From NCBI GenBank assembly GCA_016869765.1, contig VGES01000025.1, positions 1 through 51,497 on the forward strand: a stretch of 51,497 bases of DNA, read 5' to 3'. Below are positions 5,160 to 29,359 of the stretch, piece after piece (position 1 is the first letter of the stretch; the number at the start of each line of letters is the position of its first letter). Origin of the DNA: Alphaproteobacteria bacterium. Lineage in GTDB: Bacteria > Pseudomonadota > Alphaproteobacteria > SHVP01. The notes beneath the pieces are model-generated. The model did no database searches, was not told where the DNA came from, and worked only from the letters and a program-made list of their open reading frames with translations. The translations under genes and the position numbers were made by a program.

Positions 5160-5238
5160 AACCCCGCGACCCTTGCACCGCGATTTCGTGCGACCTAATG
5201 TCGCGACGATCGCAGTGGTTTACGGAGAACACCGCCCC

Positions 5239-7110: not shown

Positions 7111-7111
7111 G

Positions 7112-8128
7112 ATGAACGTCGTTCCCGAGCGTCTCACCGCCAAGGACTACGCCACCGATCAGGAAGTCCGCTGGTGCCCCGGTTGCGGGGACTACGCCAT
7201 CCTCAAGGCCGTCCAGAAGACGATGGCCGATCTGCAGGCATCGCGCGACCGTACGGTGTTCGTCTCCGGCATCGGCTGCGCGGCCCGGTTCCCTTACTAC
7301 ATGGAGACCTACGGGTTTCACACGATCCACGGTCGGGCGCCCGCGATTGCGACCGGCATCAAGCTCGCCAACCCCTCGCTCGATGTGTGGGTGGTCGGCG
7401 GCGACGGCGACATGTTGTCCATCGGCGGCAATCACCTGTTGCACGCGTTGCGCCGCAACGTCGATCTGCAGATTCTGATCTTCAACAACGAGATCTACGG
7501 CCTCACCAAGGGTCAGTACTCGCCCACCTCGCGGGTGGGCACGCGCTCGCCGTCGACACCACAGGGCTCCGTCGACCTTCCGGTCTCGGCGCTCGCATTC
7601 GCGTTGGGCTGTGGTGCGCGATTCATCGGCCGCTCGATCGATACCGAGCAGAAGCATCTGCCGGAGGTGCTCAAGCGGGCGCACGGCTACCGCGGTGCAG
7701 CGCTGGTCGAGATCTTGCAGAACTGCATCGTCTACAACGACGGCGTGTTCGCCGATATCACGGAATCGGATGTCGCCGATGACCGTCAGCTCTACCTCGA
7801 ACCCGGTCAGCCGATGCTGTTCGGCAAGAACAGGGAAAAGGGCATTCGCCTCAACCGCGAGACCCTTTCGCTCGAGGTCGTGACGGTCGGTCAGAACGGC
7901 ATCACGGCGGCTGATGTTCTCGTGCACGACGAGAAGAACAAGATGATCGCGCACATGTTGGCCCTGATGGAGCCGCCCGAATTTCCGGTCGCGCTCGGCG
8001 TTATTTACTGCGCGCCCGAGGTCCAGTCCTATGAAACCGGGCTGCTGGCGCAGGTCACCGAGGCCAAGGCGAAGGGGGCCGCGGACCTCAACAAGATCTT
8101 GCGCAGCGGCCACACCTGGAAGGTCTGA
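7112..8128 (+). CDS. korB: 2-oxoacid:ferredoxin oxidoreductase, beta subunit
   Basis: A 338-residue thiamine-diphosphate subunit partnering KorA. WCPGCGDYAIL (21-31) carries cysteines that help bind an iron-sulfur cluster. VGGDGDMLSIGGNHLL (95-110) and NNEIYGLTKGQYSPTS (125-140) form the thiamine-diphosphate/magnesium site. The C-terminal part is the extra segment typical of this branch. One base separates it from korA, so both are made from one message. The KorAB type is found in aerobes and microaerobes as well as anaerobes, so it does not by itself show an anaerobic lifestyle. No separate delta (ferredoxin-like) subunit follows. Confidence 0.9.
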   Translation: MNVVPERLTAKDYATDQEVRWCPGCGDYAILKAVQKTMADLQASRDRTVFVSGIGCAARFPYYMETYGFHTIHGRAPAIATGIKLANPSLDVWVVGGDGDMLSIGGNHLLHALRRNVDLQILIFNNEIYGLTKGQYSPTSRVGTRSPSTPQGSVDLPVSALAFALGCGARFIGRSIDTEQKHLPEVLKRAHGYRGAALVEILQNCIVYNDGVFADITESDVADDRQLYLEPGQPMLFGKNREKGIRLNRETLSLEVVTVGQNGITAADVLVHDEKNKMIAHMLALMEPPEFPVALGVIYCAPEVQSYETGLLAQVTEAKAKGAADLNKILRSGHTWKV

Positions 8129-8242: not shown

Positions 8243-8923
8243 ATGGAGAGCTCCAACCTCACGCCGCGTCAGTATTACGCGCAGATCAAGGCGACCCCGA
8301 ACCGTGCCAAGTTCGGGTTCGGTCGCAAGCCGATCCTGGTCAACATCGATCTGCAGAAGGCCTACACCCGCGTCGACAAGTTCCCGAAGACGGCCTACGA
8401 GACCGACCCGCGTCAGCTCGAATACGTCAACGCACTCGCGAAAGTCTGCCGCTCCAAGGGAATTCCCGTGGTGTGGACGCGTGTCGGTTACATGGACTCG
8501 GGCGAGGACGCCGGCGTATGGGGCACGCGGACCAACACGCCCGATTCGCTCCAGAACATCAAGATCGGGTCGGAGCGCCACGAATTCGACGATCGTCTCG
8601 AAATCGATTTCAAGCGCGATGCCGTCTACAACAAGTTGATGCCCTCGGTGTTCCACGAGACGCCGTTGCGCTCGCTCCTGGTATGGCATCGGGCCGACAC
8701 GGTGATCATCACCGGGGGATCGACCTCGGGCTGTGTGCGCGCGACCTGCGTCGACTCGCTTGCCAGCGGCTATCGTACGATCATCGTCGAGGAGGGAGTC
8801 GCCGACAAGCACGAGATCCCGCACTTCGCCAACCTGTGCGACATGCAGCTGAAGTACGCCGATATCGAGTCTTACGCGACGGTGCGCAAGTATCTCGAGG
8901 ACTACAAGCCCGCCAACGTCTGA
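8243..8923 (+). CDS. Cysteine hydrolase (isochorismatase fold)
   Basis: A 226-residue member of the isochorismatase-like amidohydrolases (nicotinamidase, N-carbamoylsarcosine amidase, RutB). The catalytic triad is visible: Asp36 in ILVNIDLQKAY, Lys131 in YNKLMPSVF and Cys164 in GGSTSGCVRATCVDSL. The ATG at 8243 follows a strong AGGGAGG; the frame is open upstream but lacks a comparable site. The next two genes are PuuE-like deacetylases on the same strand with short gaps, so the three probably act together, for example in degrading a carbamoylated or cyclic amide compound. That pathway is inference: RutB plus allantoinase-like proteins occur in purine and pyrimidine catabolism, but no diagnostic enzyme of either is in the window. 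Confidence 0.85.
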   Translation: MESSNLTPRQYYAQIKATPNRAKFGFGRKPILVNIDLQKAYTRVDKFPKTAYETDPRQLEYVNALAKVCRSKGIPVVWTRVGYMDSGEDAGVWGTRTNTPDSLQNIKIGSERHEFDDRLEIDFKRDAVYNKLMPSVFHETPLRSLLVWHRADTVIITGGSTSGCVRATCVDSLASGYRTIIVEEGVADKHEIPHFANLCDMQLKYADIESYATVRKYLEDYKPANV

Positions 8924-8994
8924 CGGACGTCGTCGGCGGTTGAACGAAATTCCGGCGCCGTCCTGGCGCCGCACCGCATCTGAGGTCGAAAGCC

Positions 8995-9921
8995 GTGAAA
9001 CCTGATCTTGGTCTCTACGATTACCTGCCGTGGACCGAACGCCCGGCGATCCGCTGGCCGAACAACGCCAAAGTGGCGTTCTGGGTGGCGCCCAACATCG
9101 AGTTCTACGAACTCGATCCGCCGCACAACCCGTCCCGGACGTTGTGGGCGCGGCCGGTACCCGACGTGCTCGCCTATTCCGAGCGCGACCACGGCAACCG
9201 CGTCGGCCACTGGCGGCTCATGGAGGTCATGGACAAGTACGGCGTGCGCGGGTCGATCTCGCTGTCGGTCGCGTTGCTCGATCACCACCCCGAGATCATC
9301 GAGGCGTGCAAGCAGCGCAACTGGGAGTTCTACTCGCACGGCATCTACAACACGCGGTTCCTCTACAACGCCAGCGAGGCCCAGGAGCGTTCGATCCTCG
9401 AGGATTCGATCGCCAGCGTGAAGAAGCACACCGGGCAGCAGATCGCCGGCTACCTGGCGCCGGCGCTCACCCACACCGAGCGCACCATGGACATCATGGC
9501 CGAGCTCGGGCTGCTCTACACCTGCGACCTGTTCATCGACGACCAGCCGTTTCCGGTCAACGTCAAGAAGGGGCGATTGATCTCGATCCCGTACTCGCTC
9601 GAGATGAACGACATCATCGTTTACAACACGCACAACGTCGCGCCGCGTCGCTATGCCGATATGCTCAAGGCCAACTTCGACCGCCTGCGCGAGGAGGGCA
9701 AGCGCACCGGCACCGTCATGTGCATCCCGTTGCACGCCTACGCCGTGTCGCAAGGCCACCGCCTGAAGGCCTTCGACGAAGCGTTGGCCTACATCACCGG
9801 CCACGATGACGTGTGGGTGACGACGGGGCGCGAGATCGCCCAGTACTACTACGCGAACTACTACGACGAGTTCGTCGAAGCGATCAAACGCTTCAAGACC
9901 AAGTATCCGCCGCGGGCCTAA
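8995..9921 (+). CDS. Polysaccharide deacetylase / PuuE-like protein, copy 1
   Basis: A 308-residue NodB-homology protein of the PuuE (ureide-type) branch rather than a secreted chitin deacetylase, since no signal peptide or TFDDG motif is present. The N-terminal RWPNNAKVAFWVAPNIEFYEL, the SHGIYN segment, YLAPALTHTERTMD and the late HAYAVSQGHR histidine motif fit the family. Proteins of this branch include metal-independent allantoinase and other amide hydrolases. GTG at 8995 is the start, with GAGG upstream. It is a paralogue of the next gene, which shares length and motif order. Substrate unknown; association with the cysteine hydrolase suggests a nitrogen compound. Confidence 0.8.
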   Translation: MKPDLGLYDYLPWTERPAIRWPNNAKVAFWVAPNIEFYELDPPHNPSRTLWARPVPDVLAYSERDHGNRVGHWRLMEVMDKYGVRGSISLSVALLDHHPEIIEACKQRNWEFYSHGIYNTRFLYNASEAQERSILEDSIASVKKHTGQQIAGYLAPALTHTERTMDIMAELGLLYTCDLFIDDQPFPVNVKKGRLISIPYSLEMNDIIVYNTHNVAPRRYADMLKANFDRLREEGKRTGTVMCIPLHAYAVSQGHRLKAFDEALAYITGHDDVWVTTGREIAQYYYANYYDEFVEAIKRFKTKYPPRA

Positions 9922-9950
9922 CGCCGCATCGCCGATCAAAGGAGCCTACC

Positions 9951-10880
9951 GTGGCCGAGCTACCCGAAAGCTACTTCAAGTATCCGTTGCGCCGTTACGG
10001 CATGGACCACGACCGCTACGACTGGTCGCTTTTGGTTCGCCGCAAACCGGTGAGTTGGCCGAACAACGCCCGCATCGCGCTGTGGATCGTACCGGCGCTC
10101 GAGTTCTTCCCGCTCGACATGCCGGCCAAGCCGTTCCGCGCGCCCGGCGGCATGCAGCTTCCCTATCCCGACCTGCGGCACTTCACGTTGCGCGAGTACG
10201 GCAACCGGGTCGGCGTGTTCCGCGTCATGGACGTGTTCGATCGCCACGGCATCCAGCGGGTGTCGGTGGCGATGAACTCTAAAGTGGCCGAGCGCACGCC
10301 TTACCTGGTCGAGCAGATCAAGCGCCGCAACTGGGAAGTGATCGCGCACGGCGTCGACATGGGCAGGCTGCACTACGGCGGTCAGGCCGAAGCCGAGGAG
10401 AAGGCGCTGGTGACCGAATCGATCACCACGTTGCGTAACCTGACGGACCAGAAGGTGCGCGGCTGGTTCTCGCCGGCGCGCAGCGAGTCGGCGAATACGC
10501 CGGACCTGATCGCCGGCGCCGGCATCGAGTACTTCTGCGACTGGGTCAACGACGATATGCCCTATGCGTTCCGAACGAAGAACGGCGTCATCACGGCGAT
10601 GCCGCATCAGCATTGGCTGTCCGACGCGACGATCTGGTTCGGCTACAAGCAGTCGGGCGAGGATTTCATCGATCAGGTCCAGGACCACTTCGACGTGCTC
10701 TACGACGAGGCGGGCAAGCAGGGCGGGCGCATCTTCGCGCTCACCATCCATCCCTGGATGTCGGGCCAGCCGCACCGCATCGAATTTCTCGAGCGTGCGT
10801 TGGCCAAGATCGCCCATCGCAAGGGCATCTGGCAGGCGACGGGCGCCGAGATCTTCGATTGCTGGAAGGCGCAACAATAG
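9951..10880 (+). CDS. Polysaccharide deacetylase / PuuE-like protein, copy 2
   Basis: A 309-residue paralogue of the preceding gene. Shared features in the same order are the SWPNNARIALWIVPALEFFPL opening, YGNRVGVFRVMDVFDRHGI, the AHGVDMG histidine, WFSPARSES and a late IHPWMSGQPHR histidine motif. The two copies differ throughout and are not a recent duplication. The GTG at 9951 has GGAG eight bases upstream; the frame is open from 9813 but that would overlap copy 1. The pair may form a heteromer or act on different substrates of one pathway; neither can be settled here. No metal-binding Asp-Asp pair of classical NodB enzymes is seen. Confidence 0.8.
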   Translation: MAELPESYFKYPLRRYGMDHDRYDWSLLVRRKPVSWPNNARIALWIVPALEFFPLDMPAKPFRAPGGMQLPYPDLRHFTLREYGNRVGVFRVMDVFDRHGIQRVSVAMNSKVAERTPYLVEQIKRRNWEVIAHGVDMGRLHYGGQAEAEEKALVTESITTLRNLTDQKVRGWFSPARSESANTPDLIAGAGIEYFCDWVNDDMPYAFRTKNGVITAMPHQHWLSDATIWFGYKQSGEDFIDQVQDHFDVLYDEAGKQGGRIFALTIHPWMSGQPHRIEFLERALAKIAHRKGIWQATGAEIFDCWKAQQ

Positions 10881-10934
10881 CTGCGTTCCGGGCCGGAATC
10901 CCGCGGCAGGGGCCCGGCCGGTACGGTGGGCCGT

Positions 10935-11693
10935 ATGGCGCGCCGGCGTGACCCCCTACGCGAGGTCGAGGCGGCGATCACGCCCCTGGCGCGACGCCAC
11001 GACGAAGCCCGCCGGACTTTCCTGGGCGGATACTTCTCGACCCGCCTCGTCGTGCGTGGGCTGACCGTTCCCGAACAGCGTCGTCTGTCGCGACGCGGGT
11101 TTTCGTTCTCGAGCAGGGCGGCGGCGGCGCAGTTTGCCTGCTGGCAGGACGTCTGGCGTCGCGGGCGATCGATGGAGGCGTTGGCCCAGCCTCTGTTCTG
11201 GCTCGAACGCCAGTCCGTCGACGATTTGGCGGCCTGGTGGCCCCGACTGCAACGCTGGGTCGGTCGCATCGACAATTGGGCCCATTCGGACCAGCTCTCG
11301 AACATCTACGCCCGCATCCTGGAGCACGATCCGACCGCCTATGCCGTATTTCGGCGCTGGAACCGCTCGCCCAACGCCTGGGCGCGGCGTCAGTCCGTGG
11401 TGGCCCTGCTGTATTTTGCCCGCCAACGACGTCGACCGCTCCCGGCGAACAAGATTCTCCCGCTCGTCGAGCGCCTGCTGGGCGACCAGGACCCCTTCGT
11501 TCAAAAGGGTGTGGGTTGGTGTCTCCGTGAGGCGGGAACGCTCTACCCGGGGGCGGTCCGGGCCTTCATCACGGCTCAGCTCGGCCGGCTTTCGGCGGCG
11601 GCTTTCGCGACGGCGAGCGAAAAGACCCCGACCGCCTTGCGCCAGCGCTGGAAACGCCGCCGCACCGCGCTTCGCCGATCTGCGAAGCGCTGA
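10935..11693 (+). CDS. DNA alkylation repair (AlkD-like) HEAT-repeat protein
   Basis: A 252-residue, Trp- and Arg-rich helical protein. The segments NWAHSDQLSNIYARIL, WARRQSVVALLYFAR and DPFVQKGVGWCLREAG resemble the HEAT-like repeats of the AlkD family, which excise 3- and 7-alkylated bases from DNA. The pattern W-A-R-R followed by K-G-V-G-W-C-L-R-E is the strongest match. The basic C-terminus (RWKRRRTALRRSAKR) fits DNA binding. The start is the ATG at 10935; an in-frame GTG at 10926 is also possible, and neither has a good Shine-Dalgarno sequence. It follows the deacetylase pair by about 50 bp but has no evident functional link with it. Confidence 0.65.
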   Translation: MARRRDPLREVEAAITPLARRHDEARRTFLGGYFSTRLVVRGLTVPEQRRLSRRGFSFSSRAAAAQFACWQDVWRRGRSMEALAQPLFWLERQSVDDLAAWWPRLQRWVGRIDNWAHSDQLSNIYARILEHDPTAYAVFRRWNRSPNAWARRQSVVALLYFARQRRRPLPANKILPLVERLLGDQDPFVQKGVGWCLREAGTLYPGAVRAFITAQLGRLSAAAFATASEKTPTALRQRWKRRRTALRRSAKR

Positions 11694-11728
11694 ACGTCTC
11701 GCGTACCATGGGGCCAGGAGAACTTGCC

Positions 11729-12685
11729 GTGGCCCAACGACGCTCCCGCCCCCTGGTCGCCGCGATCGCGATGGTGATGCTCGTTCCCGCTTGTGGCCAG
11801 CCCGTGGGGTCGCTCGCCGACCTCGACGGGGCCGTCGGCATCGTCGGGACGGTGCGCGATCTCGCGCCCGTGCGCATCAACGGCTTGGTGGTGGCGACGG
11901 ATGCGGCAATGCGAATCGAAGCCGACCACGGTCCGGCCGCGCTTCGCACGGGCCAGGTCGTCAGCCTCGAGGCGCGGCAGGTTGGCGGTACCCTTACGGC
12001 GATTGCCGTCAGAGTTCGCTTCGAGGTTTCGGGGCCGATCGAGGACATCGCCGCGGACGGCCGATCCTTGCGTGTCCTCGGGCAATCGGTCGTCATCGAT
12101 CCCGATCGTCTGATCGGCGGTTCGACCGCGTTGCGCCCGAGCGCATTGACCGTGGGCCAGTGGCTGCACGTGAGCGGTCTACGAGACGCGGGGGGCACGA
12201 TCATTGCGTCGCGACTGGACGAACGCCCTGTGGGCGGCGAGGTTTCGGTGCGGGGTCTGATCGAAGAACGTTCGGGGCCGAACGTTCGCATCGGCGACTT
12301 GACCGTCAGCGGCACCGACCTGACCGACCAACCGCTGGCCGAAGCTCGTATCGTCGGAAGCCGACGAAGTGATGGCGTCCTGGAAGCGCGCACGGTCGAG
12401 TTCGAGCCGCGAATGCCGTTCCGTGGCCGGTTCGAAACGGTGTCGTTGGAGGGCTTCGTCCGCGGCGCCCTGCTGCGTCAGGGCTTCACCATCGGCGCGC
12501 GCGAGGTCCGTTACGCGGCGGCCGGCGTCGGGCGCGGACTGGCGTTGGTTCCAGGCCAGCGCGTCCACGCGCTGGGACGACCGGCCGCGGACGGCGGCGT
12601 GATCGCGATTCAGGTATCGGAGGCGGACCCCGCACTGCCGCGACCGCCCGTCACGACGCGTCGCGAACCGGCCGCGACCGAATAG
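11729..12685 (+). CDS. DUF5666 domain lipoprotein
   Basis: A 318-residue exported protein. The N-terminus has a basic stretch (QRRSRP), a hydrophobic core and the lipobox LVPAC, so it is predicted to be lipidated at the cysteine. The rest is a run of short beta-rich repeats: GTVRDLAPVRINGLVV, GPIEDIAADGRSLRVLGQSV, VGQWLHVSGLRDAGGTIIASRL and RGLIEERSGPNVRIGDLTV. These are characteristic of DUF5666 OB-like repeats. GTG at 11729 is preferred over ATG at 11708 because AGGAG lies eight bases before the GTG and inside the longer version. The function of DUF5666 is not known. It ends at the terminator at 12695. Confidence 0.75.
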   Translation: MAQRRSRPLVAAIAMVMLVPACGQPVGSLADLDGAVGIVGTVRDLAPVRINGLVVATDAAMRIEADHGPAALRTGQVVSLEARQVGGTLTAIAVRVRFEVSGPIEDIAADGRSLRVLGQSVVIDPDRLIGGSTALRPSALTVGQWLHVSGLRDAGGTIIASRLDERPVGGEVSVRGLIEERSGPNVRIGDLTVSGTDLTDQPLAEARIVGSRRSDGVLEARTVEFEPRMPFRGRFETVSLEGFVRGALLRQGFTIGAREVRYAAAGVGRGLALVPGQRVHALGRPAADGGVIAIQVSEADPALPRPPVTTRREPAATE

Positions 12686-12741: not shown

Positions 12742-13902
12742 TCAGCGTTTCCAGGCGCCGAACATGAACCACTGGCCCTGGCCGAGGGCGTACTTGTCCT
12801 TCTCGGTCGGCGTCACCAGCGGCGCGAATGTCATCAACACGTCGTCCTTCTTGAACCCGCCTTTGACCGCCACGTCCTTCAGGTCCATGTCGTGCATTGG
12901 GCCCCAGAACGGCTCGTTGTTGTTGTGGGTGTCCCAGTCGCGCATCAGGGCATCGAACGGCGAGGGCGCCAAAGCGAACGGCGGCTGCTCGACGTGCAGC
13001 ATCAGGCCGCCCTTGCGCAGCAGCCGGTGCGCCTCTTTGACGATGTTGTGCACCGCCTTGTAGCTCGTCTCGTGCAGGAACATGGTCGAGACGATCAGGT
13101 CGAACGAGCCATCGGCGTATTTCGTGCTTTCGGCGTTCTGCTGGGCAAACGTCACGGGCACGCCCAGGCTCTCGGCGCGACGGTGGCCGTAGCGCAGCAC
13201 CGGCGCCCCGATGTCGATGCCGATGACCTCGGCGCTCGGCCAAGCTTCTTTGAACGGCAGCGTGTTGTGCCCGACGGTGCAGCCCTCATCGAGGATGCGC
13301 CTGGGCTGGAAGTTCGGATGCTGCTCGCGCAGCCAGCGGATCACCGCCCGCGCGGCGCCATCGTTGCGCTTGCCGAGCATGCCGTGGGTGGAGATGTATA
13401 GGCCGCCCATGTCGTACATCGCTCCGCCGGCGACGTCGCCGGGGACGAACTCCGTGAAGTAGCTGCCCGGCATCCAATGCATGTCGAGCGGCTGCTGGTA
13501 GCGTGGCACCGCGAACTTGGGGTCGATTTCGAGGGCGCCCTTGTCGCCGGCCTTCGTCTTGGCGCGATCGACCAGATTGTCCAACTGCCGGTCGACGATG
13601 CGGCTGCGTTCGTAATAGGTGTTCTCCTGCGCGAAGATTCGCAGGTGGCTCCAGTACCGGAAGTAGGAGTCCTTGAGCATCTCCTTGCGCACCTCGTGGC
13701 GATCCTTGGGCTTGCGCTTGTGCTCGCGGACGAACTTGGGTTCGACCCGTTTCTCGTATACCTCGCGGTGCCCGGGCGCGATCTGCGTCCCGAGGTGCCG
13801 GAAGAAATTGATCATGAAGTCGAGCCGCGCGCCCTCATCGTGCGTGGTGTCGACCAGCATCTCGTGTCGGCCGAAGTTGCGCCAAACGACCTGTTCACCC
13901 AT
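12742..13902 (-). CDS. SAM-dependent methyltransferase, tandem copy 1 (operon-distal)
   Basis: A 386-residue protein with an N-terminal region of about 195 residues rich in Trp, Tyr and Arg and a C-terminal Rossmann methyltransferase domain. Motif I is RILDEGCTVGHNT (202-214), followed by EVIGIDIGAPVLRYGH and VSTMFLHETSYKAVHN, then LLRKGGLMLHVEQPPF. The nearest recognisable type is a class I methyltransferase (Methyltransf_11 or 25); the N-terminal region is not one I can name and may bind the acceptor. The start follows CTGGAGGA by a short spacer; the frame also stays open upstream through a hairpin, where it would read MGAQGAPI. It is the third gene of a tandem array and the most diverged of the three. 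Confidence 0.85.
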   Translation of the reverse strand: MGEQVVWRNFGRHEMLVDTTHDEGARLDFMINFFRHLGTQIAPGHREVYEKRVEPKFVREHKRKPKDRHEVRKEMLKDSYFRYWSHLRIFAQENTYYERSRIVDRQLDNLVDRAKTKAGDKGALEIDPKFAVPRYQQPLDMHWMPGSYFTEFVPGDVAGGAMYDMGGLYISTHGMLGKRNDGAARAVIRWLREQHPNFQPRRILDEGCTVGHNTLPFKEAWPSAEVIGIDIGAPVLRYGHRRAESLGVPVTFAQQNAESTKYADGSFDLIVSTMFLHETSYKAVHNIVKEAHRLLRKGGLMLHVEQPPFALAPSPFDALMRDWDTHNNNEPFWGPMHDMDLKDVAVKGGFKKDDVLMTFAPLVTPTEKDKYALGQGQWFMFGAWKR

Positions 13903-13919
13903 GGAGTCCTCCAGAAATA

Positions 13920-13946
13920 CGATGGGCGCCCCTTGGGCGCCCATCG
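13920..13946 (-). terminator. Hairpin between methyltransferase copies 2 and 1
   Basis: A 12-bp perfect stem (CGATGGGCGCCC with GGGCGCCCATCG) and a three-base loop, 25 bases after the stop of copy 2. On the minus strand it is followed by TATTTC and then the ribosome site of copy 1. The weak T-run suggests an attenuator or partial terminator. Its core repeats in the hairpins at 15154 and 12695. Confidence 0.65.
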
Positions 13947-13971
13947 CTCGTCCGCCTGTGGAGGGCGCAGT

Positions 13972-15135
13972 CTAGCGTTTCCGCGCTCCGAAGATAAACC
14001 ACTGACCGTTGCCCACCCGGAGCTTGTCCTGGTCGGTCGGGGTCACGACCGGGGCCATCTCCATGATCACGTCTTTGGCCAGGAAGCCGGCCTTCTTGGC
14101 CACGTCCTCCAGGTTCATGTCATGCATGGCCCCCCAGAAGGGCTCATTGTTGTTGTGGGTATCCCAGTCCTTCAGGAGTTGGTCGAACGCCGAATTCGCC
14201 CAGGTGAAGGGCGGCTGCTCGACATGGACCATGAGCCCGCCCTTCTTGAGGATGCGGTAGTTGTCTTTGACGATGTTGTAGACCGCCTTGTAGCTGGTCT
14301 CGTGCAGCAACATCGTCGACACGACGAAGTCGAAGCTTTCGTCAGGGTACTTCGAACGTTCGGCGTTCTGCTGGGTGAACGTGACCGGCACGCCGAGACT
14401 CTCGGCGCGGCGATGGGCGTAGCGCAGCACGGGCGCCCCGATGTCCATGCCGATGACCTCGGCCTTGGGCCACTGCTTCTTGAAGGGCAGGGTATTGTGG
14501 CCGACGGTGCAGCCCTCGTCGAGGATCCGCGTCGGGTCGAACTCGGGGAAGCGGTCGAGCACCCAGCGGATCACCGACCAGCCGGCGCCGTCGTTGAAAC
14601 GGCCATTCTTGCCGTGGGTCGTGATGTAGAGCCCGCCCAGGTCGTACATCGCGCCACCCGCGATGTCGCTTTCGACGAACTCGGTGAAAAAACTTCCGGG
14701 CATCCAGTGCATGTCGAAGGGGGCCTGGTACGGCGGCACCTTGAAGTCGGGATCGATCTCAAGGCCGCCCTTGTCCGACGCGCGCGGCTTGGCTTTGGCC
14801 ACCATCTTGTCCCACTGGCGCTCGACGATGCGGCTGCGCTCCCAGTAGGTGTTGTCCTGGGCGAACAGCCGCAGGTGGCTCCAATATTGGAAGTAGGGTT
14901 CGCGCAGCATCGCCTTGCGCACCTCGTGGCGATCCTTGGGCGGCCGACCGTGTTGCTTGACGAACTTCGGCTCGGCGACCTTTTCGTAGACGGCGCGATG
15001 ACCCGGCATGACGTTGGCCGACAGGTAGCGCTGCAAGTTGATGGCGAAATCGAGTCGCGAGCCGTCATCGTGCGTCGTGTCGGCGAGCATCTCGTGGCGT
15101 CCGTAGCGGTGCCAAACGATCGGCAAATCACCCAT
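13972..15135 (-). CDS. SAM-dependent methyltransferase, tandem copy 2
   Basis: A 387-residue paralogue of the genes on both sides, colinear over its whole length with copy 3 and clearly more similar to it than to copy 1. It keeps the same N-terminal block (YGRHEMLADTTHDDG, FQYWSHLRLFAQDNTYWERSR, FDMHWMPGSFFTEF) and the methyltransferase motif RILDEGCTVGHNTLPF. The run DWDTHNNNEPFWGAMHDM occurs in almost the same form in all three copies and is a candidate active-site segment. ATG at 15135 follows TTGGAGA. The longer open frame upstream runs through the preceding hairpin and part of copy 3 and is not favoured. The role is unknown; see the FNR box at 16447. Confidence 0.87.
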   Translation of the reverse strand: MGDLPIVWHRYGRHEMLADTTHDDGSRLDFAINLQRYLSANVMPGHRAVYEKVAEPKFVKQHGRPPKDRHEVRKAMLREPYFQYWSHLRLFAQDNTYWERSRIVERQWDKMVAKAKPRASDKGGLEIDPDFKVPPYQAPFDMHWMPGSFFTEFVESDIAGGAMYDLGGLYITTHGKNGRFNDGAGWSVIRWVLDRFPEFDPTRILDEGCTVGHNTLPFKKQWPKAEVIGMDIGAPVLRYAHRRAESLGVPVTFTQQNAERSKYPDESFDFVVSTMLLHETSYKAVYNIVKDNYRILKKGGLMVHVEQPPFTWANSAFDQLLKDWDTHNNNEPFWGAMHDMNLEDVAKKAGFLAKDVIMEMAPVVTPTDQDKLRVGNGQWFIFGARKR

Positions 15136-15153
15136 GGTGTTCTCCAAAAATGC

Positions 15154-15178
15154 GATGGGCGCCCCTTGGGCGCCCATC
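15154..15178 (-). terminator. Hairpin between methyltransferase copies 3 and 2
   Basis: An 11-bp perfect stem (GATGGGCGCCC with GGGCGCCCATC) and a three-base loop, 22 bases after the stop of copy 3. On the minus strand it is followed by GCATTTTTGGAGA, that is, a T5 run leading straight into the ribosome site of copy 2. It looks like a partial intrinsic terminator that lets some transcripts pass. Confidence 0.7.
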
Positions 15179-15200
15179 AGCCTCCGGTTTCCCGGGTATC

Positions 15201-16367
15201 TTAGCGCTTCCAGGCCGCCAGCACATACCATTGCTGACCCGCGCCTAGCCTCATTTTGTCCTCTTCGGTCGGGGTCACGACCGGGGTCATGGTCTGGACG
15301 ATATCCTGTTTGCGGAAGCCCGCCTTCATCGCGACGTCCTCCAGGTCCATGTCGTGCATCGCGCCCCAGAAGGGCTCGTTGTTGTTGTGCGTGTCCCAGT
15401 CCTTCATCAATTGATCGAACGGGCTCTTGGCCCACTTGAACGGCGGCTGCTCGACATGGAGCATCAGTCCGCCCTTCTTGAGCAGCCGGTAGTTGTCCTT
15501 GGCGATGTTGTAGACCGCTTTGTATGACGTCTCGTGCAGCAACAACGTCGACAACACGAAATCGAAGGACTCGTCTTCGTATTTCGTGTGTTCGGCATTC
15601 TGCAGCGAGAACGTGACGGGCACGCCGAGGCTTTCGGCGCGCGCATGGGCGTAGCGCAGTATCGGGGCCCCGATGTCGATGCCGATGACCTCGGCGTCGG
15701 GCCAGGTCTCCTTGAGCGGCAGGGTGTTGTGGCCGACCGTGCAGCCTTCATCCAGGATCCGCTTCGGGCTGAAGTTGGGGAAGTGCTCCTTGACGTAGCG
15801 GATCACCGACCAGGCGGCCCCATCGTTGAAGCGGCCGTTTATGCCGTGAGTCGTGATGTAGAGACCGCCGAGGTCGTACATCGCACCGCCCGCGACGTCG
15901 TCCTTCACGAAATCGGTGAAGAAGCTGCCCGGCATCCAGTGCATATCGAACGGCAGTTGGTAGGGCGGTACCTTGAACTTGGGATCGAGCTCGAGCTTGC
16001 CCTTGTCCGAGGAACGCGGCTTGGCCTTGGCGACCAGTTCGGGAAGCTGGCGATCGACGATGCGGCTGCGCTCCCAGTAGGTGTTCTCTTGCGCGAACAG
16101 CCGCAGGTGGCTCCAGTACTGGAAGTAGGGCTCGCGCAGCATCGCCTTGCGAACCTCGTAGCGATTCTTGGGCTTGCGCCCGTTCTGCTTGACGAACTTG
16201 GGCTCGGCGACCTTGTCGTAGACCGTGCGATGGCCCGGCCACATCTGGGTGGCCAGGTAGCGCTGCAGGTTGATGGCGAAGTCGATCCGCGACCCTTCGT
16301 CGGCGGTGGTTTCCGCCAACATGCCGTGGCGGCCGTAATTGTGCCAAGTGATCGGAAGCTGACCCAC
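15201..16367 (-). CDS. SAM-dependent methyltransferase, tandem copy 3 (promoter-proximal)
   Basis: A 388-residue protein, first gene of the three-copy array. The N-terminal block includes YGRHGMLAETTADEG and FQYWSHLRLFAQENTYWERSR, with FDMHWMPGSFFTDF further on; the methyltransferase motif is RILDEGCTVGHNTLPL. The start is the GTG at 16367, preceded by AGGAG. It aligns exactly with the N-termini of copies 1 and 2 (MGxx..W..YGRH), which supports those starts too. It lies 80 bp downstream of a perfect FNR/FixK-type box with a -10-like TAGAGT in between, so its expression is probably tied to low oxygen or nitric oxide. The methyl acceptor is unknown; the molybdoenzyme gene upstream may belong to the same process. 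Confidence 0.87.
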   Translation of the reverse strand: MGQLPITWHNYGRHGMLAETTADEGSRIDFAINLQRYLATQMWPGHRTVYDKVAEPKFVKQNGRKPKNRYEVRKAMLREPYFQYWSHLRLFAQENTYWERSRIVDRQLPELVAKAKPRSSDKGKLELDPKFKVPPYQLPFDMHWMPGSFFTDFVKDDVAGGAMYDLGGLYITTHGINGRFNDGAAWSVIRYVKEHFPNFSPKRILDEGCTVGHNTLPLKETWPDAEVIGIDIGAPILRYAHARAESLGVPVTFSLQNAEHTKYEDESFDFVLSTLLLHETSYKAVYNIAKDNYRLLKKGGLMLHVEQPPFKWAKSPFDQLMKDWDTHNNNEPFWGAMHDMDLEDVAMKAGFRKQDIVQTMTPVVTPTEEDKMRLGAGQQWYVLAAWKR

Positions 16368-16486: not shown

Positions 16487-18805
16487 CTAGGGGTACAGGA
16501 TGGCCGGCGGATCGAAGGCGCGCACCGGCGGTACGTCGCCCACGAAGCGTTCGACCTCGACGAGCGCGCTCATCGCGCTCGGGCCCTGGGACAGCTTCGA
16601 CGTGCCCCGGTCGTAGGTCAGCACATTGGGATTGCCGTGGACGCACAGGCTGCCGATCCGTCCTGGTTCCAGCGGGTCGTACCAGGCGCCGGTGGCCAAA
16701 CGCACCACACCAGGCCGAATGCCCTCGGTCAGCACCGCGCCAGCGAGACAGGCGCCGCGATCGTTGAACACGCGGACGACGTCGCCGGCGCGGATGCCTC
16801 GCTTCGTGGCATCCTCAGGGTTGAGCCAAATCGGCTCACGCCCCGCCACCTTGCTGTCGCGGCTCACCTTGCCGTGGTCGAACTGGCTGTGAAGGCGACC
16901 GTCGGGTTGATTGGAGATGAGGTGCAGGGGGAAGCGCCGGGCGAGGCCACTGCCCAACCACTCCGCGGGTTCGAGCCACGTCGCATGGCCCGGACAATCG
17001 TCGTAGCCGAACTTGGCAACGGTTTTCGAAAAAAGCTCGATCTTGCCCGAGGGCGTGCTCAGCGGGTGAGCCTGGGGATCGCGGCGCAAGCCATCGTAGA
17101 GAACCTGGCGGCGCTCACGCCGCGGGATGGCGAAGTGCCCGGCGGACCAGAACTCATCGAACGTCGGGGTATCGACGCCATCCGACGCAGCGCGTTGGCG
17201 GTACGTCGAGTACAGATGTCGCAACCACTGTTCTTCGTTGCGGCCTTCGGTGAAGGCCTCGCCAACGCCGAGGCGCTCGGCGATCGGGGCAAAGATGTCG
17301 TAGTCGCTCTTCGCTTGGCCGACCGGGTCGACGGCTTTTTTCATGGCAAAGAACACGCTGTCCTGACCCCGGCAGCCGATGTCGTTGCGCTCGAAGGGCG
17401 TGGTCACCGGCAAGACGATATCGGCGTGGCGCGAGTGCGCATTCCAGAACGGCTCGTGCACGATGATGGTGTCAGGCTTGCGCCACGCCCGCAGCATGCG
17501 GTTCAAGTCCTGGTGGTGGTGGAACGGATTGCCGCCCGCCCAATAAACAAGCCGGATGTCGGGATAGACTAGGCGATGGCCGTCGTAGTCGATGGTGGTT
17601 CCGGGTGCCAGCAAGGCATCGGCGATACGGGCGACCGGGATATAGGTTTTCACCCGGTTTTCGCCCTGCGGCAGCACCGGCCCCCGAATCGTCCGGGTCG
17701 GGTCGCCGATCAGGTTCATCGCGCCGTAGCCGAGTCCGAATCCGCCGCCGGGTAGCCCGATTTCCCCAAGCACCGCCGCGAGCGCGATCGCGGCCGAGAA
17801 CACCTGCTCGCCATGGTCGGCGCGTTGCAGCGAGAAGGCGACGTTGATCATGGTCCGGGTAGCCGCCATCTCTCGCGCGAGGCTGCGGATTCGCTCGGCC
17901 GGAATCGCGGTGATCGCCGCCGCCCACTCGGCGGTCTTGGCGATGCCGTCCGGAACCCCCATCACGTAGTCGCGAAACGTCTCGAAGCCCGTGCAGCAGC
18001 GAGCGAGAAAGTCGGGGTCGTGGAGCCCTTCGCTCACCAAGGTATGGGCCAGCGCCAGCATCAACGCGACATCGGTGTTGGGCCGGATCGCCAACCACTC
18101 GGCTTCGAGTTCCGGGTTGGCGTCATCGCGCAGTGGGCTCACGTTGACAAAGCGAGTGCCCTGGGCGCGGCACCGCTTCAACCAGACACTATTGGTGTGT
18201 TCCGGGGCGCCGCCGCCCACGACTTGGCCGTTCTTGTCAGGGGCGCCACCGAACATGACCATGAGGCGGGTGTGTTCGGCGATCACCGGCCAGCTCGTCA
18301 TCTGGGCGCGGTAGGTATAGATCGAGCCGCCGAGGACGCGCGACACGGCCACGTCACCGGCGGCCAGGCTGTAAGTATTCACCTGGTAGACGTAGCCGCC
18401 GAGCAGGTTCAAGAAGCGATGAATCTGGCTCTGCGCGTGATGGAACCTTCCGGCGCTGGCCCAGCCGTAGCTGCCGCCGAAAACCGCCTCGTTGCCGAAC
18501 TGACGACGTACGCGTTCGAGTTCGGCCGCGACAAGATCGTAGGCGCGATCCCAGGAGACGGCGACGAACGGCTCAGCGCCACGCTTCTCGCGATTGCCGC
18601 CGGGCCCGTGGTCGAGCCAGCCCTGGCGTACCATCGGCTCGCGGACACGCGCCGGCACGTCGAGGGCGCCCGGAATCGAAGCGCCCATCGGCGAGGGATC
18701 GGGGTCGCCGGCAAACGGGTGCAACGCGACGATCTTGCCGCCGCGTACTTCGGCCTCGTAGGCGCCCCAGTGGGTGCTGGTCTGAAATCGCACGCTGCTG
18801 GTCAT
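16487..18805 (-). CDS. Cytoplasmic BisC/TorA-like molybdopterin oxidoreductase
   Basis: A 772-residue DMSO-reductase-family enzyme. GGSYGWASAGRFHHAQ (111-126) gives Ser112 as the expected molybdenum ligand, as in TMAO, DMSO and biotin sulfoxide reductases. FGGAPDKNGQVVGGG, AGGNPFHHHQDLN, PFERNDIGCRGQD and a C-terminal LISNQPDGRLHSQFDHG segment fit the bis-MGD binding subdomains. There is no N-terminal [4Fe-4S] cysteine motif and no Tat signal, which points to the cytoplasmic BisC type. ATG at 18805 is chosen; an open frame upstream lacks features. No cytochrome or membrane anchor gene adjoins it, so the electron donor is unknown. Likely substrates are S-oxides or N-oxides. It is followed by the FNR-box promoter of the methyltransferases, 119 bp of intergenic DNA. 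Confidence 0.83.
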   Translation of the reverse strand: MTSSVRFQTSTHWGAYEAEVRGGKIVALHPFAGDPDPSPMGASIPGALDVPARVREPMVRQGWLDHGPGGNREKRGAEPFVAVSWDRAYDLVAAELERVRRQFGNEAVFGGSYGWASAGRFHHAQSQIHRFLNLLGGYVYQVNTYSLAAGDVAVSRVLGGSIYTYRAQMTSWPVIAEHTRLMVMFGGAPDKNGQVVGGGAPEHTNSVWLKRCRAQGTRFVNVSPLRDDANPELEAEWLAIRPNTDVALMLALAHTLVSEGLHDPDFLARCCTGFETFRDYVMGVPDGIAKTAEWAAAITAIPAERIRSLAREMAATRTMINVAFSLQRADHGEQVFSAAIALAAVLGEIGLPGGGFGLGYGAMNLIGDPTRTIRGPVLPQGENRVKTYIPVARIADALLAPGTTIDYDGHRLVYPDIRLVYWAGGNPFHHHQDLNRMLRAWRKPDTIIVHEPFWNAHSRHADIVLPVTTPFERNDIGCRGQDSVFFAMKKAVDPVGQAKSDYDIFAPIAERLGVGEAFTEGRNEEQWLRHLYSTYRQRAASDGVDTPTFDEFWSAGHFAIPRRERRQVLYDGLRRDPQAHPLSTPSGKIELFSKTVAKFGYDDCPGHATWLEPAEWLGSGLARRFPLHLISNQPDGRLHSQFDHGKVSRDSKVAGREPIWLNPEDATKRGIRAGDVVRVFNDRGACLAGAVLTEGIRPGVVRLATGAWYDPLEPGRIGSLCVHGNPNVLTYDRGTSKLSQGPSAMSALVEVERFVGDVPPVRAFDPPAILYP

Positions 18806-18856
18806 GGTGTGGCTACCCTGTTGTCTGCGAACTCTAGACCAACGCACGTCCCCGCG

Positions 18857-18928
18857 CTCACCCCTCGTCGCGCTCGGCACCTCTCCCCGTGCACGGGGAG
18901 ACGAGGGGCCCACCGCGGAAGCGGTGAG
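18857..18928. repeat. Complex palindromic intergenic repeat
   Basis: The core CTCCCCGTGCACGGGGAG (18883-18900) is a perfect 18-bp palindrome. Outer arms CCCCTCGT (18861-18868) and ACGAGGGG (18901-18908) pair around it, and CTCAC/GTGAG pair further out, so the whole unit can form a cruciform. Intergenic palindromes of this kind are usually dispersed REP-like repeats in alphaproteobacterial genomes. It occupies the gap between the CoA transferase and molybdoenzyme genes; only one copy is in the window. Confidence 0.65.
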
Positions 18929-18935: not shown

Positions 18936-20141
18936 CTAAGCCAACCGCGAGCGTTCCGCGGGCACGACGCCTTCGGCGATCAGTGCGTCGATGGCGGTCT
19001 CCGAGTATCCCACCTCACGCAGGATGTCGCGACTGTGGGCGCCGAACGCCGGGGGCTCGCTGCGCGGGCCGCCTGGCGTGCGCGCGAACTTGATCGGCGT
19101 CCCGGTACCGCGGAAGCGGCCCATTTCGGCCACCATGTCGCGGTGCTTGGTGTGGGGGTGGCTGAGCACGTCCGGCACTTCGAGCGCAGCGCCCGCGGGC
19201 ACACCCAGCCGCATCAGTCGCTCGGCGAACTCGGCACCGTCGACGCCCGCCATCAGTTCTTCGAGCGCGGCGCGCAACGTGACCCGGTTGGCGACGCGAT
19301 CGGCGTTCGTCCGATAACGCGGGTCGTCGGCGAGTTCGGGGCGACCCAGTTCGGTGCAGAGCCGGGCGAACTGCCGGTCGTTGCCGATCGCCAGGAACAC
19401 GCGATGGCCTTTGGTCTTGAACAGGTCATAGGGCGATATGTTGGGGCTCGAGTTGCCCATGCGCTTGGGCTTCTGGCCCGACATCAGCCAGTTGTGCGCG
19501 TAGGGCAGCAGGAGGGTGATCGCCGAATCGTAGAGCGTCACTTCGAAGAATTGGCCCTGCCCCGACTTGCGCCGTTCTTCGAGCGCGGCCAGGACACCGA
19601 TCGTCGTGTAAAGCCCGGTTACCTGGTCGACCACCGAGAAGCCCACCCGCACCGGATCCTCCTCGGCGCCGCCGTTCATGCTGACGAGCCCGGCCCAAGC
19701 CTGTACGGCGCCGTCGTAGCCCGGCAGGCCGCCGAATGGGCCGTCGGCGCCGAAGCCCGAGACGCGGGCATGAATCAACTTCGGAAAACGAGCGCGCAGC
19801 GCATCGGGGCCGATGCCCCATTTCTCCATCGTGCCGGTGCGGAAGTTCTCGACCAGCACGTCGGCATCCTCGAGCAGCCGCAAACAAACATTGCGACCTT
19901 TGTCCTTGGTGAGATCGAGCGCCAGGCTTCGCTTGTTGCGATTGAGCCCGGCGAAGTAGGCGGCGATGCCGTGGGCGAACGGTGGGCCGTAGTCGCGGGT
20001 TTCGTCGCCGGTCGGCGGCTCCACTTTGATCACCGTGGCGCCGTGGTCGCTCAGGATTTGCGTCGAGGCCGGTCCCCCCAGGACGCGGGAGAGATCGACG
20101 ATCTTGAGGCCGGCCAAAGCCCCTTCACTCAACGGACGCAT
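18936..20141 (-). CDS. Class III (CaiB/BaiF family) CoA transferase
   Basis: A 401-residue family III acyl-CoA transferase. LSRVLGGPASTQILSDHGA (17-35), KVEPPTGDETRDYGPPF, NRNKRSLALDL, DVLVENFRTGTMEKWG and SGFGADGPF are canonical, and Asp143 in PGYDGAVQAWAGL matches the position of the catalytic aspartate that carries the CoA-bound anhydride. It would move CoA between two carboxylic acids, for instance from succinyl-CoA to a catabolic acid. It is transcribed with, and 11 bp after, the class I CoA transferase pair, so this stretch is rich in CoA activation chemistry. Its specific acid is not predictable. The large palindrome at 18857 follows the gene. Confidence 0.88.
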   Translation of the reverse strand: MRPLSEGALAGLKIVDLSRVLGGPASTQILSDHGATVIKVEPPTGDETRDYGPPFAHGIAAYFAGLNRNKRSLALDLTKDKGRNVCLRLLEDADVLVENFRTGTMEKWGIGPDALRARFPKLIHARVSGFGADGPFGGLPGYDGAVQAWAGLVSMNGGAEEDPVRVGFSVVDQVTGLYTTIGVLAALEERRKSGQGQFFEVTLYDSAITLLLPYAHNWLMSGQKPKRMGNSSPNISPYDLFKTKGHRVFLAIGNDRQFARLCTELGRPELADDPRYRTNADRVANRVTLRAALEELMAGVDGAEFAERLMRLGVPAGAALEVPDVLSHPHTKHRDMVAEMGRFRGTGTPIKFARTPGGPRSEPPAFGAHSRDILREVGYSETAIDALIAEGVVPAERSRLA

Positions 20142-20152
20142 GGATGGTTTCC

Positions 20153-20881
20153 TCAGTTCGACGTTAGTTGCGTGGCGAAGCGCGGGTAGGGGCGGGCAAT
20201 CTCCTGACGGATCGGGCCGCGGATCAGCGCCAGGGTTTCGGCATCCGGTGGCGTCGTCGTCGGGATCGTGGTCGGTTCGCCGAAATCGAAACCGGTCTTG
20301 CGCCGGATGGCCGCGACATCGTTTCCAGGGTGAACCGATTCGAGCCGAAAACCGCCGCGCGCTCGATCGAAGGAGAACCGTGCGCTCCCCGTGACCAGGG
20401 CCGCTGGACCACCGGGCCGGTACACATTCGGCGGGCTCGTGCCCGCGGCGCTGATGAAATCCACCTTCGGCACGAAAACGCGAGGGCTGTGATCGGGGCG
20501 GAACAGAATCACCTTGGGCACCAGGTGATAGAGGTAGGCCGCCCCGAACGAGCCCGATAACCGCGGGCGCGAGCGCGGGTAATCGCCGATTCCGACCAGA
20601 TTGACGTTGGCTTGGCCGTCAATCTGGGCACCCGAGAGGAAGAACGCGTCGATGCGGCCCTGGGCGGCGCAGTCGAACAGCTCCTTGCCGCCGTCGGACC
20701 AGAACGTGTTTTCCGGATCGCCCAGGATCGAGACCCGCATCGCCCCGCCGCTGCGGTGACGCGCCAGGAGGGCGGCTGAACCCGGGATCGGCGAGGCCAT
20801 GCCGACGGCCACGTGCCGGCATCCCGCGAGCAGGTCGGCGATCACCGCGATCAGCAGCTCTTCCGCCCGATAGGCCGTCAT
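20153..20881 (-). CDS. Class I CoA transferase-like beta subunit (GctB/IpdB type)
   Basis: A 242-residue beta subunit. QGRIDAFFLSGAQIDGQANVNLVGIGDY (about residues 75-102) is the hallmark of the GctB/IpdB branch of family I CoA transferases. I do not see the usual SENG-type catalytic glutamate motif; the corresponding segment reads ILGDPENTFWSDGGKELFD. That hints at an IpdAB-like ring-opening hydrolase or an unusual transferase rather than a standard enzyme. The ATG at 20881 overlaps the stop of the alpha-subunit gene (ATGA), which fixes the start despite an open frame upstream. The two subunits should form a heteromer. Confidence 0.8.
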   Translation of the reverse strand: MTAYRAEELLIAVIADLLAGCRHVAVGMASPIPGSAALLARHRSGGAMRVSILGDPENTFWSDGGKELFDCAAQGRIDAFFLSGAQIDGQANVNLVGIGDYPRSRPRLSGSFGAAYLYHLVPKVILFRPDHSPRVFVPKVDFISAAGTSPPNVYRPGGPAALVTGSARFSFDRARGGFRLESVHPGNDVAAIRRKTGFDFGEPTTIPTTTPPDAETLALIRGPIRQEIARPYPRFATQLTSN

Positions 20882-21708
20882 TGGGCGGCTGCTCGGGTGG
20901 CAAAGACGAATTCGTCGAGGTAGCGGCGAAATCCCTCGGGCGTCGCAGCGGCGCTCGCGTAGCGCGTTAGGTGTTCGGCATCCTCGGCATAACAACCGTG
21001 GAGGCCGAGCGGCCAAGCCCCACGTGGGGCTTCCGCAACAGCTTCGACATAGAACGACGACAGCGTGCCTGCCGCGTAGGCCGGATCGTGCATCAGGTCG
21101 ACATCGACGATCTGTTCGGCCGTGATTAGCGTCCGCCGGGACGCATGGGCCATGGTCACGAGGTCGCGTTCGCGGCCGACGAAGACGTTGCCGTGGCGAT
21201 CAGCCCGGGCGACGTGGAACAACGCGATATCGGGCTGCACGGCGGCGACCAAGACGATCGGGTCGCTCCCCGCTTCGAACGGGTTGTCGATGACGCGCCA
21301 ATCGGGTCGGAACTTTAGGACATCGGTGCCGAGAATCCCGCGCAGCGGAAGGAAAGGAACGCCCTTCTCGCTCGCCTGCAGACCGGCGTGAACGGCGGGG
21401 CAGGTGGCATCACGAATGACGATCGTCCCCTCGCTCACCGCCGCCCCGAAACGTGGCGCCGGGCCATACTCCGAGAGCGAGACGCCGGAGGTCTCGACTT
21501 CGGCCACGCATCCCGCGCCGATGAGCAGATCGGACTGCATTCCGCTGGTCGGGACGGTGAGGATCCGGAGCCCCTGGGCGCGACGTCGGATCAGGGCGCG
21601 GGTCGCCGCCAGGGCGACTCCGTTGCGATCCGCGGGCAGCGCCAGGAGGGCGCCATCGGGGATGCGGTTGGCCAAGTTTTCCACGTCGATGAGTTCGGTG
21701 CGCGGCAT
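20878..21708 (-). CDS. Class I CoA transferase-like alpha subunit (GctA/IpdA type)
   Basis: A 276-residue alpha subunit of a family I CoA transferase. LLIGAGCVAEVETSGVSLSEYG, FLPLRGILGTDVLKF and ALFHVARADRHGNVFVGRERDL match the GctA/IpdA group, which includes glutaconate CoA-transferase and the steroid ring-opening hydrolase IpdA. Its stop overlaps the ATG of the beta subunit by four bases, so both are made in stoichiometric amounts. An inverted repeat GGTAGA-N9-TCTACC lies 15 bp before the start. With the class III CoA transferase immediately downstream, the three genes form one operon. The acid handled is unknown. Confidence 0.83.
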   Translation of the reverse strand: MPRTELIDVENLANRIPDGALLALPADRNGVALAATRALIRRRAQGLRILTVPTSGMQSDLLIGAGCVAEVETSGVSLSEYGPAPRFGAAVSEGTIVIRDATCPAVHAGLQASEKGVPFLPLRGILGTDVLKFRPDWRVIDNPFEAGSDPIVLVAAVQPDIALFHVARADRHGNVFVGRERDLVTMAHASRRTLITAEQIVDVDLMHDPAYAAGTLSSFYVEAVAEAPRGAWPLGLHGCYAEDAEHLTRYASAAATPEGFRRYLDEFVFATRAAAQ

Positions 21709-21822
21709 TGCGCCAGTCTAACGGTAGAAAGTGGCTGTCTACCAACGCCGGGGTCGCCCCCCGTGGCGCCGCGGCACCAGAGGCCCGCACCGCGCCCCGC
21801 TGCACCCCGTTCGCAGCGCGGG

Positions 21823-28471: not shown

Positions 28472-29359
28472 TCAGCGGAAGTGCTCCGCGTCGTAGCGCG
28501 TCCCGTCCGCTAGGATCGCCTCGGTTCCCAGCAACTGGTTCAGTTGCTTGAAATCGTACGTTCGTTCCCGGAACGCATCGGCACTGCCATCGCGCTTGAG
28601 AGCGGCGAGGTACTCGGTCGCGAGAAAGCTATAGGCGCGGAACAGGCCGCCGGGGAAGATGACGATGCCGTAGCCGAGCGCCTCGAGTTCCGTGGCGCTC
28701 CGGAGCGGCGTGGCGCCACCCTCGACCATGTTGGCGATCAATGGAGCGCGACCCTTGAATCTCGCGCACATGTCCCGCTGCTGCTGCTCGGTCTCCGGGG
28801 CCTCGAGGAACAACACATCGGCCCCGGCCTCGACGTAGCGTTCGGCGCGCTCGATGGTCGCCGCATAGCCCTCGACCCCGATGGCATCCGATCGGGCGAC
28901 GATCAGGGTGTCGGCGGACCGCCGGGCGTCACAGGCAGCCTTGATCTTGCCCACCATCTCGCCCGTCGGCACGACCGTCTTACCCTTGAGGTGGCCACAG
29001 CGCTTGGGAAAGGTCTGGTCCTCGAGCTGAACGGCCGCGGCGCCGGAAGCCTCGAACAGTCGCACGGTGCGGCGCACGTTGAGGGCATTGCCGTAGCCCG
29101 TGTCGGCATCGACGATGAGCGGCACGTCGTTTCGCTCGGCGATCAGCGAAATCGCCGTCGCCACCTCGTTCATGCTGACGAGGCCGATGTCGGGCATCCC
29201 GTGTTTGGTGTAGGCGATCGAGCCACCGCTGACGTAGGCCGCCTCGAACCCGGCGCGTACGATCATCCACGCCGAGAACGCGTCGAAACACCCCGGTGCA
29301 ACCAGGATACCGGATCCGTCCAATCGTCGGCGGAGCCGCGCGGAGGGAGAACTATTCAT
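28472..29359 (-). CDS. ICL/PEP-mutase family lyase, paralogue B
   Basis: A 295-residue isocitrate lyase/PEP mutase-superfamily enzyme. PLIVDADTGYGNALNVRRTV (with Asp84 and Asp86 as metal ligands), VQLEDQTFPKRCGHLKGK (Glu113, Asp114, and KRCGH with Cys121) and a late EALGYGIVIFPGGLFRA are present. The KRCGH cysteine is the general base seen in C-C lyases such as methylisocitrate lyase, 2,3-dimethylmalate lyase and oxaloacetate decarboxylase-like enzymes, and is absent from true PEP mutases. It begins with zero spacing after the stop of paralogue A (TAG directly followed by ATG) and is closely similar to it. The acid cleaved is unknown. Confidence 0.86.
   Translation of the reverse strand: MNSSPSARLRRRLDGSGILVAPGCFDAFSAWMIVRAGFEAAYVSGGSIAYTKHGMPDIGLVSMNEVATAISLIAERNDVPLIVDADTGYGNALNVRRTVRLFEASGAAAVQLEDQTFPKRCGHLKGKTVVPTGEMVGKIKAACDARRSADTLIVARSDAIGVEGYAATIERAERYVEAGADVLFLEAPETEQQQRDMCARFKGRAPLIANMVEGGATPLRSATELEALGYGIVIFPGGLFRAYSFLATEYLAALKRDGSADAFRERTYDFKQLNQLLGTEAILADGTRYDAEHFR

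Follow-up and report, generated by a model that had tools for sequence, protein, structure and literature searches.

Tandem two-domain methyltransferases in a catabolic gene region and the expansion of their family in one marine alphaproteobacterial lineage

The methyltransferase triplet and its two domains

The window analyzed in this work, i.e. the whole stretch of 51,497 nucleotides, contains three intact genes, c1 (positions 12742-13902, 386 residues), c2 (13972-15135, 387 residues) and c3 (15201-16367, 388 residues, with a GTG start), which lie head to tail on the minus strand as the first-pass annotation had described them (386-388 residues). Their products share an unchanged RILDEGCTVGHNT motif, and the WDTHNNNEPFWG run that had also been assigned to all three, although as near-identical, is in fact fully identical in them. 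In agreement with the earlier description, c2 and c3 are the closest pair (78% identity), whereas c1 shows 70% identity to either. The dN/dS ratios (NG86) were about 0.28 for c1-c2, about 0.24 for c2-c3, and about 0.11 for c3 and an 86%-identical homolog that is found as a lone gene elsewhere in the relative G002, and these values of about 0.1-0.3 indicate purifying selection on the three genes. The spacers upstream of c1 and c2 each carry, on the minus strand, the same 25-base hairpin GATGGGCGCCCAAGGGGCGCCCATC (13921-13945 and 15154-15178, respectively), and the folded spacers gave z-scores of -3.7 and -4.7. A genome-wide repeat was rejected as an explanation because these are the only two copies in the genome. 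The presence of an identical hairpin before c1 and c2 alone agrees with a tandem duplication that copied a gene together with its leader, and the triplet arose by local tandem duplication.

The C-terminal half of the three proteins is, as judged by its sequence, a class I SAM methyltransferase with a Rossmann domain and a Gly-rich motif I. It matches Pfam Methyltransf_25 with 63-70 bits (cut-off 27), and the class I SAM positions D206 (or Glu), G208, and G212 are conserved, D231 being present in 62 of the 63 paralogs of the same genome. No equivalog model of NCBIfam reached its own cut-off when c1-c3 were scanned. A role in anti-phage defence was rejected, the mad2 match spanning the generic methyltransferase domain alone.

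Preceding the catalytic half there is a domain of about 195 residues (residues 1-196 of c2, 14548-15135), which has its counterparts at 13318-13902 in c1 and at 15780-16367 in c3, all on the minus strand. This region had been regarded as lying outside recognized families, and single-sequence scans did indeed yield no Pfam, NCBIfam, or PDB sequence match. Profile searches with the N-terminal region alone did not retrieve a known acceptor-binding domain from Pfam or PDB; a profile built from 75 N-domains had zero sequence matches in PDB, and a Pfam scan of the 75 aligned N-domains one by one gave scattered weak matches, each in at most two members. Two of these, DUF3014 (one divergent member) and DUF6082 (2 of the 75 members), were discarded as the identity of the domain because they are sporadic. 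A Foldseek search of PDB with the AlphaFold2 model of the N-domain alone gave no match either (best E 0.87). The N-domain is a protein family absent from Pfam, and it has no known relatives in sequence or fold.

The AlphaFold2 models had a mean pLDDT of 95 for the whole c2 protein and of 87 for its isolated N-domain. In the latter region, helices at residues 22-42, 45-62, 69-76, 80-106, and 108-115 are followed by an extended loop that contains the invariant residues P134, H143, and G147. The stretch of this loop around residues 141-150, which holds the invariant His143, was modelled with a confidence of 86 in the whole protein versus 59 in the isolated N-domain, which suggests that this stretch probably lies against the catalytic domain.

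Gene neighborhood of the triplet and its counterpart on sphingomonad plasmids

An orthologous locus is present in six other assemblies (G006, G004, G008, G003, MarineAlpha2_Bin1, and NAT392; loci L065, L067, L080, L081, L084, and L086), and in all of them it contains a single methyltransferase whose nearest copy in the window is c1. Two PuuE-like hydrolase genes adjoin these single-copy loci, most of which also have an isochorismatase gene and KorAB, and those of genus g4 keep CoA-transferases and an FAD oxidase as well. The equivalent genes of the window are, on the plus strand, an isochorismatase-fold hydrolase (8243-8923), whose nearest PDB entry is N-carbamoylsarcosine amidohydrolase and which is a conserved neighbor of the methyltransferase in relatives, and two conserved PuuE-allantoinase-like hydrolases (8995-9921 and 9951-10880). 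On the minus strand there are a family III CoA-transferase (18936-20141), which adjoins the single methyltransferase in the g4 relatives, two CoA-transferase subunits (20153-21708) conserved with it in that genus, and a FAD_binding_4 oxidase (21823-23385) that is a recurrent neighbor of the family also in other bacteria. A ferredoxin-NADP-reductase-like gene followed by a two-subunit 2-oxoacid:ferredoxin oxidoreductase (3858-8128) is kept near the methyltransferase locus in several relatives. The region between the PuuE-like hydrolases and c1 (10926-12685) encodes an AlkD-like DNA alkylation repair protein with HEAT repeats and a 325-residue protein without match in an NCBIfam scan; AlkD homologs lie near the orthologous locus also in MarineAlpha2_Bin1 and NAT392.

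The tie to the upstream molybdoenzyme that the first-pass annotation had proposed for a co-occurrence check was not supported. This BisC/DMSO-reductase-type gene (16487-18913, minus strand, start probably at 18805) is absent from the six orthologous loci and from five of eight relatives of the same family, all of which have methyltransferases. A partnership was therefore rejected, with homologs in only four of the nine lineage genomes searched (own included) and none at orthologous loci, and the molybdoenzyme is considered a neighbor rather than a conserved partner. Two genomes, G003 and G006, do have a homolog at a distance of about 2.3 kb from another methyltransferase, an observation too weak to count.

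Homologs of seventeen window genes are found in a catabolic island of plasmid pJE1 from Sphingomonas sp. JE1, where the isochorismatase-PDA-PDA order is kept (63, 56, and 42% identity for the isochorismatase-fold hydrolase and the two PuuE-like hydrolases, respectively), and the same island is found in pTomTYG65b from Sphingobium sp. TomTYG65. Like the window, both plasmids hold a CaiB CoA-transferase, an FAD oxidase, and a methyltransferase in one region, but they carry one methyltransferase with a small partner protein instead of three without it, and their LeuCD and HMG-CoA lyase have no match in the window. A literature search on pJE1 found no paper. The parts of the window that resemble the island are 1-771, 8243-10880, 18936-23385, 28475-30253, 37450-46139, and 50383-51288; that at 37450-46139 consists of two tandem gene pairs for proteins of about 560 residues with alpha/beta-hydrolase homology, which recur beside methyltransferases at further loci. 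Much of the window is a marine counterpart of the sphingomonad plasmid island. The island hydrolases are similar to PuuE allantoinase and to N-carbamoylsarcosine amidohydrolase, and PrpB-like lyases are encoded at 28475-30253. As a lead to the substrate of the local island, these enzymes would suit a putative cyclic ureide or imide whose ring is opened to give a substituted dicarboxylate, although the lead does not point to the intermediate that is methylated.

Expansion, retention, and pairing within the methyltransferase family

The genome that contains the window (3.99 Mb, 99.6% complete) yielded 66 matches to the methyltransferase family, i.e. 58 close paralogs, 5 divergent members, and 3 fragments or generic methyltransferases. 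Copy numbers in nine further genomes of this GTDB family run from 8 to at least 47; for the GTDB family as a whole, whose related MAGs include MarineAlpha2_Bin1, the range is 8 to about 60 copies per genome. In a class-wide sample of 288 genomes, 284 of them from outside this GTDB family, only 9 of the 284 had a match, with 1-3 copies each. A search with the family alignment also found MarineAlpha2_Bin1, casp150-mb.32, and further MAGs, as well as single copies in Binatia, Nostocales, Gammaproteobacteria, sphingomonads, and one Bacteroidota MAG. Megaplasmid pSA1 (NZ_CP017076.1) of Novosphingobium resinovorum SA1 carries six members. MarineAlpha2 is placed in the GTDB order GCA-2701885, which has been reported from oxygenated sea water (PMC8879329). 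Judging by the matches above, the window probably comes from this order as well. Most of the about 60 copies of the genome are single, and tandem arrays of 2-4 exist at further loci besides the triplet. The triplet is part of a lineage-specific expansion to about 60 diverged copies in one marine lineage. The methyltransferase family was not described in any paper retrieved by literature searches on it, on pJE1, or on the GTDB order.

Most of the paralogs that were tested are retained between genera. In a tree of 165 family members, in which the genome was compared with G006, an assembly of a different genus, 33 small clades unite copies of both genomes, most of them with support above 0.9. The mean identity of orthologs is 61-76% versus 29-55% for paralogs, depending on the region. 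Of 37 ortholog pairs, 28 have in common at least one homologous neighbor within four genes, whereas shuffles (n = 200) gave a mean of 6.6 and a maximum of 12. The neighbors are catabolic and varied, and they include SBP_bac_5 solute-binding proteins, alpha/beta hydrolases, SDRs, FAD enzymes, hydantoinase B, amidase, and MmgE/PrpD. At L057:6646-12623, methyltransferase and hydantoinase-B genes alternate twice in a close-packed array on one strand. A single pathway common to all copies was rejected, since the 142 neighbors analyzed belong to as many as 125 Pfam families. In G006, homologs of the pJE1 island account for 47 of 372 genes near methyltransferases (among the 47 are 2 genes that resemble the methyltransferase but score under the family threshold, and 3 small partners) versus 6 of 234 genes in arbitrary stretches (Fisher p 6e-6); a separate enrichment, for families that were originally delimited in the own genome, is less independent than this one.

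Outside the lineage, a protein of about 110 residues is encoded near the methyltransferase in 48 loci, usually as the next gene. Its pairing with the methyltransferase is close to 1:1, with 24 partners for 25 methyltransferases, nearly all adjacent, in 18 genomes of several phyla, and it is seen in Binatia, Nostocales, Gammaproteobacteria, sphingomonads, and one Bacteroidota MAG. This partner (e.g. L105:7153-7482, alignment A5; pattern AKGKRPxFF...MALAGEVSVxRERLDTxERLLExKG) is predicted from its sequence to be helical, and neither a Pfam family nor a convincing PDB relative was found for it. The genome of the window has only 8 partners versus 63 methyltransferases, 7 of these partners beside a family member and 1 near a contig end, and c1-c3, like most expanded copies, have no adjacent partner gene. 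W379 is kept in all 50 outside members and in 7 of the 8 partner-linked copies of the genome, versus 43% of its remaining copies, a distribution that is only suggestive of a partner-contact residue; W334 falls inside a retrieval pattern for the outside members. Taken as a whole, the methyltransferases constitute a new family within a known superfamily, for whose N-domain and partner protein no relatives are known.

Proposed function and comparison with known systems

H143, D269, H278, E279, and E331 are identical in the 63 paralogs of the genome and in the 50 outside members, and all of these proteins carry Glu or Asp at position 306. Since the patterns used to retrieve the outside members span ILD-GC-VG and EPFWG, the figures of the own genome are the unbiased ones for those stretches. 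When the family was aligned with PF00891 at profile level (probability 98.5), H278 matched the LH[D] histidine and E306 a Glu located 28 residues later; a histidine at the place equivalent to H278 is also common in generic Methyltransf_11 domains. Caffeate O-methyltransferase uses His269 as catalytic base, with Glu297 and a second Glu, Glu329, that orients the histidine (PMC12013660). The alignment at Glu329 is not exact, and the invariant E331 may play the part of this residue. The positions that are conserved among orthologs and variable among paralogs include 144-145, 274-276, 307-312, 319-325, and 334, and 12 of the top 30 lie within 6 residues of 143, 278, 306, or 331 (hypergeometric p 1.4e-4), as measured by linear sequence distance, which is a crude measure. 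This pattern agrees with an acceptor pocket that has diversified around a constant catalytic centre.

From these features we infer methyl transfer by a general base to diverse acceptors. The C-terminal Rossmann domain would bind SAM, and the N-terminal helical domain with its long conserved loop would pack on it and probably close the acceptor pocket. We propose that His278, beside Glu279, serves as the general base for the acceptor with the help of Glu/Asp306 and perhaps of Glu331 and His143 of the N-domain, a role modelled on His269, Glu297, and Glu329 of caffeate O-methyltransferase. Since the about 60 copies sit, many of them, in different catabolic clusters and diverge at pocket positions, each of them most likely has an intermediate or substrate of its own to methylate, and the three copies of the window represent a tandem duplication inside one such cluster. 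We thus favor, with a probability of roughly 0.6, the interpretation that the family consists of acceptor-specific small-molecule SAM methyltransferases with two domains and His278 as base, whose copies serve different catabolic clusters. The frequency of such a histidine in generic Methyltransf_11 domains and the great diversity of the neighbors weigh against it.

The first-pass annotation had offered either three linked specificities or a hetero-oligomer acting on one substrate. The former was reasonable in kind but understated the scale, as there are about 60 diverged copies, many with orthologs in another genus. The latter, that c1-c3 form a single hetero-oligomeric enzyme, might be suggested by the head-to-tail order, short spacers, common domain layout, and purifying selection of the three genes, and by the arrays of 2-4 at further loci; nevertheless, it is improbable because the orthologous locus is single-copy in six other assemblies, and the lone gene of G002 that is the closest homolog of c3, together with the prevalence of single copies among the about 60, also argues against it. 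Redundancy or dosage amplification with little functional difference would agree with the tandem nature of the triplet and with the hairpin copied along, but is very hard to reconcile with the low identity of paralogs compared with that of orthologs and with the persistence of orthologs between genera together with their neighbors.

Two other readings concern the reaction itself. Some enzymes with the methyltransferase fold, such as RdmB and SpnF, use SAM without transferring its methyl group. An equivalent use of SAM here, with a structural or electrostatic role of this cofactor in catabolic hydrolysis, decarboxylation, or ring chemistry, would suit the catabolic surroundings, the presence of SpnF among the fold matches of the c2 model, and an invariant His/Glu cluster that could bind metal; we consider it unlikely, as the SAM-binding positions are conserved throughout. 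Somewhat less probable still is that the family methylates a protein or a signalling molecule, or modifies it in another way; the small helical protein would then be its scaffold or target, and the expansion would regulate each catabolic cluster. The strict pairing outside the lineage and the occurrence of one copy per diverse cluster speak for it, but the scarcity of partners in the own genome, the absence of a recurring paired regulator, and the divergence of paralogs at pocket-near positions, which points to different small acceptors, do not.

Methylation is normally biosynthetic, regulatory, or detoxifying; dozens of orthologously retained methyltransferases amid catabolic genes are unexpected. 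The acceptor-specific methyltransferase reading leads to a broader and more tentative proposal, which we regard as possible rather than probable, that this marine lineage possesses a toolkit of about 60 methyltransferases with a new acceptor-binding domain, for which methylation would be a regular step in the breakdown of many dissolved organic compounds, and that the small helical protein would be an ancestral partner subunit. The family could point to routes by which marine organic matter that contains nitrogen is broken down, and its invariant pocket, variable surrounding positions, and conserved neighbors provide a ready set for linking sequence to acceptor. In addition, the N-domain and the partner of about 110 residues represent two protein families missing from Pfam.

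Among known systems, the best NCBIfam scores of c1-c3 correspond to CpaM, a corrinoid-protein-associated methyltransferase (44-47 bits, cut-off 180), BioC, the malonyl-ACP O-methyltransferase (41-46 bits, cut-off 184.95), and UbiE; with a maximum of 47 bits versus cut-offs of 158-185, the proteins fall outside these families, and the likeness is that of a generic class I domain, the match spanning the C-terminal half alone. Foldseek matches of the whole c2 model were likewise confined to the Rossmann half of many methyltransferases. The best fold match in PDB, Rv2258c of Mycobacterium tuberculosis (5f8e), is alike in its SAM-binding domain and overall size, but along the whole chain (TM about 0.44, rmsd 17.5 A) agreement is restricted to the Rossmann half. 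The plant-type O-methyltransferases of PF00891, i.e. caffeate O-methyltransferase and its kin, share with c1-c3 the two-domain layout and the C-terminal alignment at profile level; however, the Pfam score of c2 (15.6 bits) is below the cut-off of 22.3, c1 and c3 have no listed match, full-length superposition on the AlphaFold2 model is poor (rmsd 16-20 A), and the N-domain is not of the PF00891 type. No PF00891 O-methyltransferase was found in the own genome at E <= 1e-12. The small partner protein differs from Trm112-type activators in having no Pfam or convincing PDB relative. Nevertheless, Bud23-Trm112 (4qtu) is present in the fold list for the c2 model, and the genomic pairing of about 1:1 suggests that the partner might be a subunit that works similarly to these small activators.
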